In this document: positions 2,608-43,133 of the stretch, piece by piece
Position numbering within the stretch: the stretch's first letter is position 1
Layout: the number at the start of each line of letters is the position of its first letter
From: Cohnella sp. SGD-V74
GTDB lineage: Bacteria > Bacillota > Bacilli > Paenibacillales > Paenibacillaceae
NCBI RefSeq assembly: GCF_003001675.1
Contig: NZ_PVYW01000023.1
Coordinates: forward strand, 62,001 to 126,000
Direction of reading: 5' to 3'
DNA length: 64,000 bases
The notes under the pieces: model-generated
The model's input: the letters and a program-made list of their open reading frames with translations, nothing else
The model's database searches: none
What the model was told of the DNA's origin: nothing
Translations under genes and position numbers: made by a program

Positions 2608-3800
2608 TCCGTTCGTTCGCTCGCTCTAACCCGACTCAGGCGGGCTGCAGCTCCTCCAAGCTCCGTTTGCCGGCTCTAACCCGACTCAGGCGGGCTACAG
2701 TTCCTCCAACCTCCGTTCGCTCACTCTAACCCGACTCAGGCGGGCTGCAGCTCCTCCAACCTCCGTTCGCTCGCTCTAACCCGGCTCAGGCGGGCTACAA
2801 TTCCTCCAACCTCCGTTTGCCGGCTCTAACCCGACTCAGACGGGCTACAGTTCCTCCAACCTCCATTCGCTCGCTCTAACCCGACTCAGGCGGGCTACAA
2901 CTCCTCCAACCTCCATTCGCTCGCTCTAACCCGACTCAGTCGGGCTGCAGCTCCTCGAACCTCCGTTCGCTCGCTCTAACCCGACTCAGGCGGGCTGCAG
3001 TTCCTCCAACCTCCGTTCGCTCGCTCTAACCCGACTCAGGCGGGCTACAACTCCTCCAAGCTCCGTTTGCTCGCTCTAACCCGACTCAGTCGGGCTGCAG
3101 CTCCTCCAAGCTCCATTCGCTCGCTCTAACCCGACTCAGTCGGGCTGCAACTCCTCCAACCTCCGTGCGCCTGCTCTATAACCCGACTCAGTCGGGCTGC
3201 AGCTCCTCCAAGCTCCGTGCGCTTGCTCTAACCAGACTCAGTCGGGCTGCAGTTCCTCCAACCTCCATTTGCCGGCTCTAACCCGACTCAGTCGGGCTAC
3301 AAGCTCCTCCAACCTCCGTTTGCTCGCTCTAACCCGACTCAGTCGGGCTACAGCTCCTCCAACCTCCGTTTGCTCGCTCTAACCCGACTCAGGCGGGCTA
3401 CAGTTCCTCCAACCTCCATTTGCCGGCTCTAACCCGACTCAGTCGGGCTACAAGCTCCTCCAACCTCCGTTTGACCGCTCTAACCCGACTCAGGCGGGCT
3501 GCAGCTCCTCCAACCTCCGTGCGCCTGCTCTAACCCGACTCAGTCGGGCTGCAGCTCCTCCAACCTCTGTTCACTCGCTCTAACCCGGCTCAGTCGGGCT
3601 GCAGCTCCTCCAACCTCCGTTTGCTCGCTCTAACCCGACTGAGTCGGGCTACAGTTCCTTCAACCTCCGTTCGTTCGCTCTAACCCGACTCAGGCGGGCT
3701 ACAGTTCCTTCAACCTCCGTTCGCTCGCTCTAACCCGACTCAGGCGGGCTGCAGTTCCTCCAACCTCCGTTCGCTCGCTCTAACCCGACTGAGTCGGGCT
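2608..3800. repeat. Tandem array of 24 copies of a 50-bp hairpin unit
   Basis: The unit repeats every 50 bases, with a few 51- and 52-base steps, from 2608 to a clean end at 3800. Each copy carries an imperfect palindrome CCCGACTCAGTCGGG flanked by CTCTAA and CAGCTCCTCCAACCTCC. I count 24 copies of CGGGCT, from 2641 to 3795. About half have a perfect 7-bp stem (AGTCGGG arm) and eleven have one mispair (AGGCGGG arm); one copy has AGACGGG. The period is not a multiple of three, and no long ORF covers the array, so it is not a coding repeat. There are no unique spacers, so it is not CRISPR. No gene lies within 300 bases to its right. Confidence 0.97.
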
Positions 3801-4929: not shown

Positions 4930-4974
4930 TATAATGGTCAATTATTATCCATATTAGAATTCAACAGAGTCCAA

Positions 4975-5003
4975 AATAAAAAAACCAAACCTCGGCGGTT
5001 TGG
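4975..5003 (-). terminator. Terminator of the agr-like operon
   Basis: On the minus strand CCAAACC and GGTTTGG form a stem around GCCGA, followed by seven T residues (A-run at 4978-4984). It lies about 30 bases after the LytTR gene stop. Confidence 0.75.
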
Positions 5004-5032
5004 CTTCTGTTTCCTTACGGCTGATATGCAGT

Positions 5033-5428
5033 TCACTTCTTCCAGAACAACGACGGCCTTAGGATAGATTTAGTCTGATAACTAGCTTCCTCTTCTTTAG
5101 CCAGATGTTGCACCTTACTAACATTCGCTTCCGAAACGGTAGCAAATTTGCTGTCACTAGTCCACGGCTGCTCAAAGTAAACCTTTCGAGCCTTTGGATC
5201 AAAAGCCTTCACGTGGTTCATGTTTACGACATTAGTGCGGTCCAGACGTTCGAAGCCCAGATCCTTAAACAGGACGAGTAGTTCTTCAAGCGTGGTGGGG
5301 TAGAAATACATGTTGTCCTTCGTATAGAACTCAGGACCATCCGACGTAGGCTTGATCGCAATTAAATCCTCAACGTTAACAACACATGGGTTTCCATCGC
5401 GATCTAGCAAGTGGATTTGGTTAGACAT
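5033..5428 (-). CDS. Stand-alone LytTR-domain DNA-binding protein
   Basis: A 131-residue protein consisting essentially of a LytTR-type beta-fold DNA-binding domain. The stretch about residues 30-100 has the family pattern (YFYPTTLEELLVLFKDLGFE, then LDRTNVVNMNHVKAFDPKAR). It has no N-terminal receiver domain, unlike AgrA. It is the last gene of the leftward agr-like operon, 32 bases after agrD, with an AAGGGGATG ribosome site. In known systems LytTR regulators bind direct repeats upstream of agr promoters. Here the protein cannot be phosphorylated in the AgrA manner, so how it receives the signal is open. Confidence 0.85.
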   Translation of the reverse strand: MSNQIHLLDRDGNPCVVNVEDLIAIKPTSDGPEFYTKDNMYFYPTTLEELLVLFKDLGFERLDRTNVVNMNHVKAFDPKARKVYFEQPWTSDSKFATVSEANVSKVQHLAKEEEASYQTKSILRPSLFWKK

Positions 5429-5460
5429 GAAATCATCCCCTTTCTAACGTTTAACAAGTA

Positions 5461-5583
5461 TTACTTCTTTAGTTCGGCAGGAATTTCGGGACGGTGCCAG
5501 AAGGTCCATGAAGCCGTGCTTACGAATACAACAGCAACCAGTGCAAGGAGTTTTGAAACACTTACGGCTACAGATCGTTTCAT
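5461..5583 (-). CDS. agrD: AgrD-like cyclic lactone autoinducer pre-peptide
   Basis: Forty residues. An amphipathic N-terminal leader (MKRSVAVSVSKLLALVAVVF) is followed by VSTASWTFW, then the acidic recognition tail HRPEIPAELKK. This is the AgrD layout: leader, autoinducer, tail with conserved Pro and Glu. The ring would be S-W-T-F-W: serine plus four residues gives the usual five-membered macrocycle, but as a lactone because serine replaces cysteine. The expected AgrB cut is between W and H. A perfect GGAGGTGAT site lies 5-7 bases before ATG. It sits 4 bases after agrB. Mature peptide ends are inferred. Confidence 0.88.
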   Translation of the reverse strand: MKRSVAVSVSKLLALVAVVFVSTASWTFWHRPEIPAELKK

Positions 5584-5587
5584 TCTA

Positions 5588-6106
5588 TCACCTCCTTTTT
5601 AACGAGATTGTAGAAACCGCTTGAAAAAAGTGAGCAATAGCAATGGTTGAACTCAGAAAAAAGAAATTCACTCCAATAATTAATAGAGATATAAGTTTCA
5701 ATAAAGGAAAATACTTTTTAGGAATTCGAGCATGGCCTTCAATATTAGAAGGTGCAAATATCATTATAATAACTAAGTTTATACAAATAAAGTATACTGT
5801 CCAACTTGCATTCAATGAAATATGTGGAGCTATCGAGAGCAATATAGTCGATAACAAAGAACAATGCATGGCTTTCCTTAAATGAAGCCCGCCGGAAAAA
5901 AAACGCAATATAACGAATGCCAACGCCCCGAGCATTGTCATGCCTAATGTTCCAGTAATGACCCCAACCGTTCCAATAAATAGAACCGTGAGTAGGGTTT
6001 GAATAATTCCTTCAAGAGAGAATTTCATTACGGCAACGCTAGCCGTATTATCCGGGTCTGCTCTCTTTATTGATTCGGCAATACGAAGAGCTAAAGATTC
6101 AATCAT
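5588..6106 (-). CDS. agrB: AgrB-like pre-autoinducer peptidase
   Basis: A 172-residue integral membrane cysteine endopeptidase that trims and cyclises AgrD. The catalytic pair is visible in GGLHLRKAMHC: His75 and Cys82, with the same seven-residue spacing as His77 and Cys84 of Staphylococcus AgrB. Five or six hydrophobic segments follow the amphipathic N-terminus. Its start overlaps the end of the upstream membrane-protein gene by 8 bases, and agrD follows after 4 bases, so the three are translationally linked. The region is clearly more AT-rich than the chromosome around it. Confidence 0.92.
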   Translation of the reverse strand: MIESLALRIAESIKRADPDNTASVAVMKFSLEGIIQTLLTVLFIGTVGVITGTLGMTMLGALAFVILRFFSGGLHLRKAMHCSLLSTILLSIAPHISLNASWTVYFICINLVIIMIFAPSNIEGHARIPKKYFPLLKLISLLIIGVNFFFLSSTIAIAHFFQAVSTISLKRR

Positions 6107-6761
6107 TTTTTCTCCCGTCCCTTTTCACAGAGAGATATATCAACCCTAACAGCGCGATAAAGAGAAATATTGAAACAAATAGATTAGGAACGTTCTTAAA
6201 CAAAACGAACATAAGATTAACAATAAAAATTGCCACAATCGATAAGGATATGAACACAAGGAACGGGCGATTGTCTCTATCAAAGAACCTGATCCGTTTA
6301 AATCGGCTATTATTTTCTACAAAACTGAATCCACCCTTTTGCAAGTAAATAACAAGCCCAAACATAAACATCATGAACGCTGAAGCCGATTGCATGATAA
6401 ATGCGTTTCTTGTGTATGGCTCGATTTCTCCAATACTTCCAAAGTGTATTGTAACTGTCGCAATAATCCATGAAACGATAAAATTAATTAAGTACCCGGT
6501 GGTCACCATTACAGTAGCATTAAATAAATGAACCCTTAGAAAAAAAACGACAAAGCATATCATTAAACCCGCTTGAACCAAGGGTGAAATTGCTCTTAAT
6601 GATTCCGTTTGCAACGTATTCGACACAAGACTCAACACAACAGAAAAAATAGCAAATTTTAATACATACTCATTAATATTGAATCGAAACAACACAAGTA
6701 TAAAAAACACAAATGCAATATATTCAAGCGATGAGAAGAACACAAAGCTAGCAAAATTCAT
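6099..6761 (-). CDS. Polytopic membrane protein, first gene of the agr-like operon
   Basis: 220 residues, about six or seven transmembrane segments, ending in the basic tail KRDGRKND. It has no kinase domain. Its segment pattern resembles the membrane sensor half of AgrC-type kinases, so it may be an extra peptide receptor, an immunity or transport factor, or a truncated sensor; I cannot assign a family. GGAGG stands 12 bases before ATG. The gene overlaps agrB by 8 bases and is transcribed away from the AgrC-like kinase gene. Confidence 0.75.
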   Translation of the reverse strand: MNFASFVFFSSLEYIAFVFFILVLFRFNINEYVLKFAIFSVVLSLVSNTLQTESLRAISPLVQAGLMICFVVFFLRVHLFNATVMVTTGYLINFIVSWIIATVTIHFGSIGEIEPYTRNAFIMQSASAFMMFMFGLVIYLQKGGFSFVENNSRFKRIRFFDRDNRPFLVFISLSIVAIFIVNLMFVLFKNVPNLFVSIFLFIALLGLIYLSVKRDGRKND

Positions 6762-6930
6762 TTTTGAATTGTTCCTCCAGCATAAAATAGTCCTGCTCCT
6801 ATTTTATCATTTTCAATTCATTCGTATCTATAATTTTCTAAAAAGTATGTTGAAAAAATAAATTAACTTATCCAATTTTCCTATATTAAATGGTATAAAA
6901 GGTTTATATCATTCTTCTTGGAGGTAAAAA

Positions 6931-8280
6931 TTGGATTCCATAATCAATTTTTTGAAATTAAACATTCTTGTATCCATTCCGCAATTTTTCGTTTACTGGC
7001 TATTTTGTTTTTCATTTATAAATCCCCAACCGCCGAAACTGATAAAAAGACTGTTTCTAATGGCCGTTATTCATTCTGTGTATACCGATTCGCTGGTCCT
7101 AGTATTGCCTACTTATATGCATCTAATTAATACTACGTTGACTGGCATCCTGCTGACGTTTCTATTTTTCCGGGACTTAAAAACTAAACAAAAAATTGTC
7201 GTTTACTTATTTTTGCTCGTGTTTTCAATCGTTATGGATATGATTTTAGCGACGATACTTGTTTACCTTATAGGAATTCCATCCCGTGAATCCTTTTTGC
7301 GCGAAGACTTGTTGAAGATACTCCCGGTATTGTATCCTCAACTTTTCGTAGTCTCGATCTTGTCCTGGTTTATTCGCGCCCGCAAAAATAATTATGGAAA
7401 AAAGATATTTTCGATATTATCGGATATTGAAAAAGGAACTCTCGCAAAAGTTTCTTCCCTTATCGTGATTCAATTTATACTGCTAGGGTCTTTACAACTA
7501 ATTCAAATCAGTACCGAAAAACATAACTTCTATTTGAGCATCATCCTCGTCTACCTCACCATCCTAGTCAGTCTACTAGCCCTAGTCTCGATCATCCGCC
7601 TGCTGGTGAGAACAAGAGAACAAGCGGCCAAGTCGACGCAAGAGGTATACATAGACGACATTAACGATATGTTCACGTCGATTCGCGGGCAGAGGCACGA
7701 CTTTCTGAATCACGTTCAAGTGATCCATACGATGGTGCAAATGGGCCGAACGGAGCAGTTGAAAGCCTATGTCGGAGATCTGGTCAAGGAGACCCGGGAC
7801 GTGAGCGATATCGTTCACCATTCTTCTCCGGCGCTCGCCGCCTTCATTCAAGCGAAGACGGCGGTCTCTATCGGTAAAGGCATCGATTTTACATACGAAC
7901 TCCCCGCCAAGTGGGATGCCGGCGAAACGACGGTTAAAGTGATCGACATTATCAAAATCATGGGCAATCTCGTAGACAACGCATTCGACGAAGCTATGAA
8001 CCTCCCGCAGCAGGAGCGAAGCGTCTTCGCCTCTATTCGCGTCTTGGAGGACGGATCGATCGAACTTCTAGTCTCCAATCGCGGCCGCTCCTTGACGGCG
8101 CACGATCGGCAGCTTATTTTCAAACCGGGGTATACGACGAAGGGGGAAGGACATAGCGGGCTCGGGTTGGCCATCGTCCAAGAGAGGGTCAAGCACTACA
8201 AAGGCTCGTTGGACCTGGTGTCCGACGAGAGGGAAGGGCTGACTACTTTCAAGGTCTACCTTCCGGAAATAAGCGCGTAA
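6931..8280 (+). CDS. AgrC-like sensor histidine kinase (GHKL, SpoOB-type)
   Basis: 449 residues. About six membrane segments fill residues 1-225, followed by a coiled linker. The phosphoacceptor is in RGQRHDFLNHVQVI (His256), typical of AgrC/CitA-like kinases, and the GHKL ATPase has an N box (NLVDNAFDEA) and a G box (GEGHSGLGLAIVQ). It would sense the AgrD-derived peptide at the membrane. TTG start with GGAGG six bases upstream. It is divergent from the agrBD operon with about 170 AT-rich bases between. No receiver-domain partner is found nearby. The membrane half is AT-rich while the kinase half has normal genome composition, a break inside one gene. Confidence 0.9.
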   Translation: MDSIINFLKLNILVSIPQFFVYWLFCFSFINPQPPKLIKRLFLMAVIHSVYTDSLVLVLPTYMHLINTTLTGILLTFLFFRDLKTKQKIVVYLFLLVFSIVMDMILATILVYLIGIPSRESFLREDLLKILPVLYPQLFVVSILSWFIRARKNNYGKKIFSILSDIEKGTLAKVSSLIVIQFILLGSLQLIQISTEKHNFYLSIILVYLTILVSLLALVSIIRLLVRTREQAAKSTQEVYIDDINDMFTSIRGQRHDFLNHVQVIHTMVQMGRTEQLKAYVGDLVKETRDVSDIVHHSSPALAAFIQAKTAVSIGKGIDFTYELPAKWDAGETTVKVIDIIKIMGNLVDNAFDEAMNLPQQERSVFASIRVLEDGSIELLVSNRGRSLTAHDRQLIFKPGYTTKGEGHSGLGLAIVQERVKHYKGSLDLVSDEREGLTTFKVYLPEISA

Positions 8281-42957: not shown

Positions 42958-43133
42958 ATAAAAACGACCCCAAATGAGATCAGGGTCGTGTATCCATCAA
43001 TCGTACGCGCGCCCCTCTCATCTGTCAGAAACGATACCGTTTCCGCAAGAATTAGCACCGTGCGTCTAATGACACTACGCCGGTTGCCGGGCTTCATAGG
43101 GCTAGTCCCTCCGCCTGCTCTTGATAAGATGGC
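42958..43133 (-). promoter_or_regulatory. SAM-I (S-box) riboswitch of metA-metI-patB
   Basis: Read leftward: CTTATCAAGAG (43118-43128), then GGCGGAGGGA, GCCC...GAAGCCCGGCAACC, the core S-box. It ends in a terminator (ACGACCC/GGGGTCGT, 42964-42989) followed by UUUUUAUG. SAM binding should stop transcription before metA. Confidence 0.96.

Follow-up and report, generated by a model that had tools for sequence, protein, structure and literature searches.

The agr system is a textbook peptide two-component system. In the LytTR Regulatory Systems (LRS) HdrRM and BrsRM, a LytTR regulator without a receiver domain is paired with a membrane inhibitor (PMC6193735); the same article also lists "LRS-like" operons of Bacteroides in which the membrane gene comes first, and neither AgrB nor Paenibacillus occurs in its main text. 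In 2014, AgrB, a presumed AgrD and membrane proteins that resemble AgrC but lack an ATPase domain were reported from three phages (PMC3901668), then assigned to Paenibacillus and now known as the Brevibacillus phages Davies, Emery and Abouo. That report of kinase-less AgrC-like proteins is a partial forerunner of the observations made here. According to a 2025 review (PMC11945551), agr-bearing phages lack AgrA and may use that of the host. Here we describe an agr-like locus at positions 5033–8280 of a 64,000-nucleotide stretch of contig NZ_PVYW01000023.1 from Cohnella sp. SGD-V74 (the window). Four genes, encoding a transmembrane (TM) protein, AgrB, AgrD and a LytTR DNA-binding protein, lie in this order on one strand, and the gene of an AgrC-like histidine kinase is divergent from them (Table 1). 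We consider it probable that the four genes form an agr-type quorum-sensing operon that works without a phosphorelay, in which a kinase-less receptor would act directly on a receiver-less LytTR regulator.

The first-pass annotation of the window, which was made from the sequence letters, had already drawn the five genes as a minus-strand TM–AgrB–AgrD–LytTR series with a divergent plus-strand kinase, and all five were found again in these positions. Its description of the locus as agr-like is borne out by the Pfam family PF04647 in AgrB and the NCBIfam model TIGR04223 in AgrD, and His75 and Cys82 could be read directly in the AgrB protein. Among the 71 Cohnella AgrB frames with 150 or more amino acids (aa), 70 have the GGxH...C motif. 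The regulator was rightly called receiver-less: it matches PF04397 only, and no receiver domain was found in it by Pfam. The same is seen in its family, where LytTR is recognised in 31 of 32 relatives and a receiver in none; the family profile also matches the DNA-binding domain of AgrA (3bs1, E 1.3e-6). The claim that the locus has no AgrA with a receiver also stood, and a search for a canonical agrA across the assembly (8.24 Mb, 59 contigs) was likewise negative. No AgrA-like partner was found either in the locus or among the five LytTR proteins of the assembly. Three of these are stand-alone receiver-less proteins (in the window, on contig 25 and on contig 4), a fourth is fused to an ABC-ATPase-like domain, as read from its frame, and the only one with a receiver is encoded on contig 21, where it adjoins a His_kinase/GAF sensor.

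The arrangement is conserved in the genus. AgrB was found in all 37 Cohnella genomes examined, that of the window included, and 73 agrB loci were taken from them with about 6 kb per side where the contig allowed (seven have less than 4 kb on one side). The profiles were seeded from the proteins of the window, and the loci were picked by AgrB, so that the presence of TM and LytTR genes was not built into the sample. The TM protein was found in 73 loci, AgrB in 73, AgrD in 70 and the LytTR protein in 70. A check of the gene neighbourhood of the membrane protein, suggested in the first-pass annotation, thus places a TM gene at every Cohnella agrB locus. The full same-strand order TM–AgrB–AgrD–LytTR recurs in 68 of the 73 loci, and the arrangement is therefore not due to chance. 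No receiver frame near the 73 cassettes has a LytTR domain, one such frame (L109) being cut by the end of the stretch. The LytTR gene itself is occasionally doubled: locus L076 has two tandem LytTR genes (4958–5833), and in L111 a fused double LytTR protein of 240 aa is encoded (6600–7322).

The TM protein, which like AgrD matches no Pfam family at E≤1, is by sequence comparison an AgrC-type sensor domain without the kinase. A profile built from the 73 Cohnella TM proteins matches ten AgrC sensors with a probability of 98.3 and E 2e-14 over 154 columns; a reversed control gave E 0.22, and AgrB controls gave no match. A model built from Cohnella alone recognises, at E≤1e-3, 8 of 11 frames of full AgrC kinases, and no reversed frame is recognised; as these kinases had been found through the TM profile, 8 of 11 should not be taken as an unbiased estimate. 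When other families of the class and phylum are compared, the match to the profile takes up the N-terminal half of frames of 406–480 aa. Five loci from other classes of the phylum (L222, L224, L225, L226 and L228) have collinear AgrC–AgrB–AgrD–AgrA operons with a full kinase and an AgrA composed of receiver and LytTR domains, and the TM gene of the cassette occupies the place of AgrC in this order. In all 17 kinases checked from outside the class, of which 11 are full and 6 are encoded apart from their sensor, the phospho-acceptor His and the N and G boxes are intact. The TM protein stops at residue 220, the point at which a kinase would start, and has none of the three. Among 45 TM relatives, no family was matched by more than two at E≤0.1, and none of those matched is a kinase family. 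The AlphaFold2 (AF2) model of the TM protein is a seven-helix bundle with a predicted local distance difference test score (pLDDT) of 90.6, and the charge profile indicates an N-out/C-in orientation; a Foldseek search of the model against the PDB gave no match at E≤0.001. Compared directly with the sensor of the Cohnella kinase alone, the TM profile gives a weak match (probability 10, E 0.003), so that the link between the two runs through the AgrC sensors from outside the class. The membrane protein had been regarded as an extra component with no known role. With its identification as an AgrC sensor domain, the question becomes how such a sensor acts on the LytTR protein.

Cassettes of the same kind extend beyond Cohnella. 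Among 295 genomes of Paenibacillaceae, the family to which NCBI assigns Cohnella, the TM profile matches 186, in 16 of 19 genera, and AgrB matches 193; both are present in 183 genomes, AgrB only in 10, TM only in 3 and neither in 99. In 20 loci of other genera, which were chosen by their TM match, AgrB was found in 19, AgrD in 20 and LytTR in 14. In a sample of the class, the TM profile matches 44 of 398 genomes, 19 of them Paenibacillaceae. One further family (f23) has stand-alone TM genes in five loci (L167–L170 and L174), four of them with a short LytTR gene. Two departures from the usual anatomy were noted. In L201 (4914–5839) the TM gene is followed directly by agrD and no AgrB frame was found; tandem TM genes are present in the bacterial locus L167 (5881–7288) and in the phage loci L255 (1107–2508) and L256 (1104–2508), Emery and Davies being the phages concerned.

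A search of the phage collection for AgrB returned eight records, which correspond to Davies, Emery and Abouo and to the Paenibacillus phages Paisley and Harrison. The region read spanned about 2.5 kb to either side of agrB. TM–AgrB–(AgrD)–LytTR is present in Emery, Davies, Abouo and Harrison. The TM model matches in these four with E 1e-27 to 8e-36, AgrB with E≤3e-38, and the AgrD model in three of the four. The next gene, of 118–122 aa, is matched by the LytTR model (E 5e-15 to 3e-11), with Pfam LytTR above its cut-off in two of the four phages, and the kinase and receiver models match none of the cassette genes. The cassettes of Davies and Abouo are directly preceded by an integrase gene. 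That a mobile element carries just these four genes is an argument that they suffice, although proteins of the host might also be used. While agr-bearing phages are described in the review cited above as lacking AgrA, a LytTR gene adjoins agrD in the four phages read here.

The divergent kinase, which had first been taken as the core sensor of the locus, has to be weighed as the true receptor. It would then signal through an unlinked response regulator, with the TM and LytTR proteins as accessory factors, for example in immunity and autoregulation. The kinase matches Pfam SPOB_a and HATPase_c (E about 1e-15), all 17 frames longer than 400 aa (16 in cassette loci, the other a paralogue) have the H, N and G motifs, and its sensor matches the AgrC sensors at E 4.7e-11. 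The AF2 model of this sensor (pLDDT 77) is a bundle of helices, the last of which is extended. Its distribution is at odds with such a role. A homologue adjoins only 15 of the 73 Cohnella cassettes, is broken in one of them (L082) and is not found beside the other 58; weak matches to the kinase model in L066, L073, L076, L100 and L119 (86–98 bits, other H-box types, 0.9–3.7 kb away) were not counted. It is also missing from the four phage cassettes and from a second cassette of the same genome. The latter lies on contig 25 in the same order as in the window (TM protein of 211 aa, AgrB, AgrD, LytTR protein of 123 aa), and no match to the kinase model was found in the 13 kb read around it. The two TM proteins of the genome share 26% identity (E 6e-7), and the AgrD of the second cassette has CQYGM, with a Cys ring, where that of the window has SWTFW. 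The closest paralogue of the window kinase in the assembly (36%), encoded on contig 27 (L021, 6623–7963), adjoins cytochrome-oxidase-like genes, as read from the frames, and neither an agr gene nor a partner regulator was seen beside it. In L060 (940–5112) three tandem AgrC-like kinases are divergent from one cassette.

Which protein follows the peptide was assessed by co-divergence in 14 Cohnella loci with a TM protein and a kinase frame of more than 400 aa. L082, L119–L121 and loci lacking a part were omitted; the kinase of L051 is split over two frames, of which the longer was used, and the nearest of the three kinases was used for L060. The mean identity in these loci is 0.42 for TM, 0.38 for AgrB, 0.58 for AgrD, 0.77 for LytTR and 0.46 for the kinase sensor. 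AgrD distances correlate with those of TM (rho 0.49, p 0.001) and AgrB (0.29, p 0.007), in contrast to those of the kinase sensor (0.12, p 0.24). The DNA distance of PrkA served as a proxy for the species; it is a coarse one, PrkA being 89–97% identical to the protein of the window. TM (0.15), AgrB (0.11) and AgrD (−0.17) do not follow this proxy, whereas the kinase sensor (0.62) and LytTR (0.51) do. With PrkA taken into account, the partial correlation is 0.53 for AgrD and TM (p 0.0005), 0.29 for AgrD and the kinase sensor (p 0.05) and 0.30 for AgrD and the kinase domain (p 0.05). As AgrD tracks TM and AgrB and not the kinase sensor, TM–AgrB–AgrD behaves as a specificity block, which favours the TM protein as the receptor. 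The co-divergence of the kinase with LytTR, discussed below, points the other way; on balance we regard the kinase as an unlikely receptor.

A different possibility is that a separate kinase works in trans with the TM sensor, the phosphate passing to an unlinked regulator and the LytTR protein only modulating the response, as does BlpS of Streptococcus gallolyticus, a receiver-less LytTR protein that represses in a pheromone pathway (PMC8545106). Separate sensor and kinase genes do exist: six loci from outside the class (L233, L234, L235, L237, L238 and L239) have an AgrC split into a sensor of about 160 aa and a kinase of about 285 aa. Five of them, those with AgrB in view (all except L238), have the kinase and a receiver-LytTR protein in the cluster, while no receiver-LytTR protein was found near any Cohnella cassette and the cassette LytTR has no receiver to take the phosphate. 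Such pairing in trans seems to us quite improbable. That the TM protein is an AgrB partner, an exporter or an immunity protein and not a receptor, with LytTR outside its control, agrees with the 8-nucleotide overlap of the TM gene and agrB in the window and with the co-divergence of the two proteins (rho 0.60), but is very improbable for a homologue of AgrC sensors that stands in the place of AgrC in collinear operons.

Loci in which AgrC is a dead kinase were found in other families of the Bacilli. In seven loci (L156–L160, L162 and L163), the TM domain is followed by a degenerate kinase in which the His, the N box and the G box are gone in every case; L164, whose frame seems cut, was omitted from this check. 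In the five dead-kinase frames scanned, no ATPase domain was found by Pfam at E≤0.01; L159 shows an NCBIfam trace of a DcuS/MalK kinase (E 7e-4 and 5e-4). The last gene carries a receiver in L156, L158 and L162 (Pfam) and in L159 (receiver model), and no LytTR gene was found beside AgrD in L157, L160 and L163. In L160, L163 and L164, agrBD and a TM domain whose attached kinase is dead or cut lie beside a separate kinase of about 270 aa, and no LytTR gene was found. In a tree of AgrB, 45 kinase-less rows form one group (support 97/86) beside seven rows from dead-kinase loci (99/92), and 17 kinase-bearing rows stand apart (100/99). The tree includes 15 of the 73 Cohnella loci as well as L164 but not L160, whose frame is short, and its midpoint root serves for drawing only. 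The topology fits an order of events in which kinase activity may have been lost before the kinase domain.

We propose that AgrB would cut and cyclise AgrD to a small ring peptide, which would leave the cell. The TM protein, ending where the kinase of AgrC would begin, is suggested to bind this peptide, and binding would change how it holds the receiver-less LytTR protein, so that the latter would then act on DNA. In the likeliest mode, direct contact would release or activate LytTR, in the manner of the streptococcal LytTR regulatory systems. The divergent kinase may be an optional second sensor in some Cohnella. The anatomy of the operon and the homology of the sensor are well supported, and phosphotransfer is most likely bypassed on the way to DNA; the structure of the peptide, the TM protein as its receptor and the direction of control are what we infer from them. 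Of the earlier interpretation, the agr-like nature of the locus, the receiver-less regulator, the lack of an AgrA partner and the predicted Ser ring have thus been retained, and the kinase as core sensor and the TM protein without a role have been given up.

Several observations weigh against this mechanism. Its central step, contact between the TM and LytTR proteins, is itself inferred. The main result against a simple line from TM to LytTR comes from the 14 loci with a kinase: the distances of LytTR follow those of the kinase sensor (0.77; partial 0.67, p 0.0045) and not those of TM (0.18; partial 0.12, p 0.19), and the kinase may therefore act on LytTR in some way where it is present. In favour of the mechanism, TM and LytTR do co-diverge in 51 cassettes without kinase (0.47, p 0.001, no species control). 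LytTR genes are absent beside 3 of the 73 Cohnella cassettes, from L170 and from the position after AgrD in 6 of the 20 loci of other genera; the genomes of these six all have LytTR proteins somewhere, and four of them include such proteins with a length of 116–168 aa. In L168, a receiver-LytTR protein and a 277-aa kinase frame lie directly downstream of the cassette. The TM protein could have another role, for instance in immunity or as a partner of AgrB. Autoregulatory LytTR repeats upstream of the TM gene were considered and rejected, as they are not enriched over shuffles, which were first-order Markov samples: repeats with 8 of 9 matches at 20–23 bp occur in 11 of 73 regions and in 254 of 1460 shuffles, and spacings of 10–45 show small excesses, the largest being 8 loci against 3.1 expected (11-mers, 9 matches, spacing 11). 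Pairs of matches to a LytTR site matrix reach p≤0.05 in 5 of the 73 upstream regions, that of the window among them. Finally, in a LytTR tree (104 columns, bootstrap not settled), the domains of AgrA, LytR and the ABC-fused proteins form one clade (100/98) and the cassette LytTRs fall outside it. As they are not nested among the AgrA domains, a loss of the receiver from AgrA is unsupported by the tree, and the regulator may have been recruited and not trimmed; from the sequences, a recruited stand-alone protein and a trimmed AgrA may be equally possible origins.

Taken together, the data can be read more broadly, in a tentative synthesis that we would not quite call probable. The cassettes would represent a class of peptide quorum sensing without any phosphotransfer, widespread in Paenibacillaceae, with further members in one or more other bacterial families and in temperate Brevibacillus and Paenibacillus phages, in which a kinase-less AgrC sensor would control a receiver-less LytTR protein by contact. 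The class would descend from an agr lineage with a decayed kinase, of which the dead-kinase loci persist, and TM–AgrB–AgrD would be a swappable specificity block. The LytTR-regulatory mechanism would thereby gain an operon-encoded ligand, and phages could set lysis or lysogeny by prophage density.

The peptide itself is predicted to have the ring S-W-T-F-W (codons 5497–5511), followed by the tail HRPEIPAEL. Ring size, cleavage and position follow solely from the alignment of the tails of 70 Cohnella AgrDs, which agrees with the five-residue serine ring, and hence a lactone, predicted in the first-pass annotation. The serine is not conserved across homologous loci: the first ring residue is Ser in 23 of the 70 AgrDs as against Cys in 38, and another residue in 9, of which 7 carry a Cys one residue earlier. 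Serine is a common variant and not a defining feature of these peptides, and the serine lactone was dropped as the novelty of the locus. Peptides with a lactone ring have been described from Staphylococcus pseudintermedius and Enterococcus faecalis (PMC3673130). In eight other cassettes (the phage loci L255–L258, and L167, L172, L174 and L097), AgrD-like peptides have Lys approximately at the ring start, for example AKVTIGSPVVPKEL; the AgrB of these cassettes keeps His and Cys, with GG changed to KG in four of the eight. From the sequence, the Lys-type peptide may form a lactam ring or may stay uncyclised.

The coordinates are collected in Table 1. Upstream of the TM genes, the 10-mer TGATAAAATA is present in 9 of 73 regions, and shuffles give at most 3. 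Near the operon, a minisatellite occupies positions 2614–3800 of the window (23.7 copies of a 50-bp unit, 89% matches). A SAM riboswitch is located at 43015–43130 on the minus strand (78.7 bits).

Table 1. Genes and putative signals of the agr-like locus, in window positions
Feature	Position	Strand	Description	Evidence
TM protein gene	6099..6761	minus	220 aa; AgrC-type sensor domain without kinase, proposed peptide receptor	
AgrB gene	5588..6106	minus	172 aa; His75/Cys82; processes AgrD	PF04647, E 7e-18
AgrD gene	5461..5583	minus	40 aa	TIGR04223, 43 bits, cut-off 19 (NCBIfam)
LytTR DNA-binding protein gene	5033..5428	minus	131 aa; no receiver; proposed output regulator	PF04397, E 3.5e-8
Divergent AgrC-like histidine kinase gene	6931..8280	plus	449 aa; H/N/G boxes intact; optional companion	
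Promoter-like site 5′ of the TM gene (weak)	6801..6830	minus		Consensus scan; no more sites than in shuffles
Terminator-like hairpin and T run directly after the LytTR gene (weak)	4980..5008	minus	Located as expected for the end of the operon	Scan; no more sites than in shuffles

The cassette shares with the canonical agrBDCA system of Staphylococcus the catalytic His and Cys of AgrB, the AgrD precursor, the AgrC-type sensor domain and the LytTR output domain, and its gene order is that of the agr loci L222, L224–L226 and L228. It differs in having no kinase domain on the sensor and no receiver on the regulator. The operon contains neither an AgrC kinase nor an AgrA with receiver and LytTR domains, and since both are missing, the cassette is not a canonical agr system. 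The serine-lactone pheromones of S. pseudintermedius and the gelatinase biosynthesis-activating pheromone (GBAP) of E. faecalis share the lactone ring formed by an AgrB-type protein, but belong to systems with AgrC/FsrC and AgrA/FsrA (PMC3673130). The BlpS/BlpRH system of S. gallolyticus likewise has a receiver-less LytTR protein in a peptide quorum-sensing cluster, with the difference that BlpS antagonises a full two-component system (PMC8545106). Of the agr cassettes of the three phages, the LytTR gene beside them and the family-wide bacterial counterpart found here are not mentioned in the accessible part of the 2014 report (PMC3901668), and a limited search of the open-access literature returned no account of a TM–LytTR cassette. 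The locus thus represents a variant of agr, widespread in Paenibacillaceae and on phages, with neither phosphotransfer domain. Loci with an active kinase, a dead kinase and no kinase offer a natural series for the dismantling of a two-component system, and the crossing of the signal from membrane to DNA becomes a small two-protein question. With the LRS described in PMC6193735, the cassette has in common a receiver-less LytTR regulator encoded together with a kinase-less membrane protein. It departs from them in that the membrane gene is first and the LytTR gene last (in the 68 ordered Cohnella loci), where in LRS the regulator gene lies upstream, in that the membrane protein belongs to the AgrC sensor family and not to DUF3021 or DUF2154 and the operon makes a peptide, and in that the paired direct repeats upstream of the promoter were not found. 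Because gene order, membrane family and upstream repeats differ, the cassette is not filed as an LRS, although its anatomy resembles one. If the proposed mechanism is true, the cassette supplies a ligand for a system of the LytTR-regulatory type, the inputs of which are little known.

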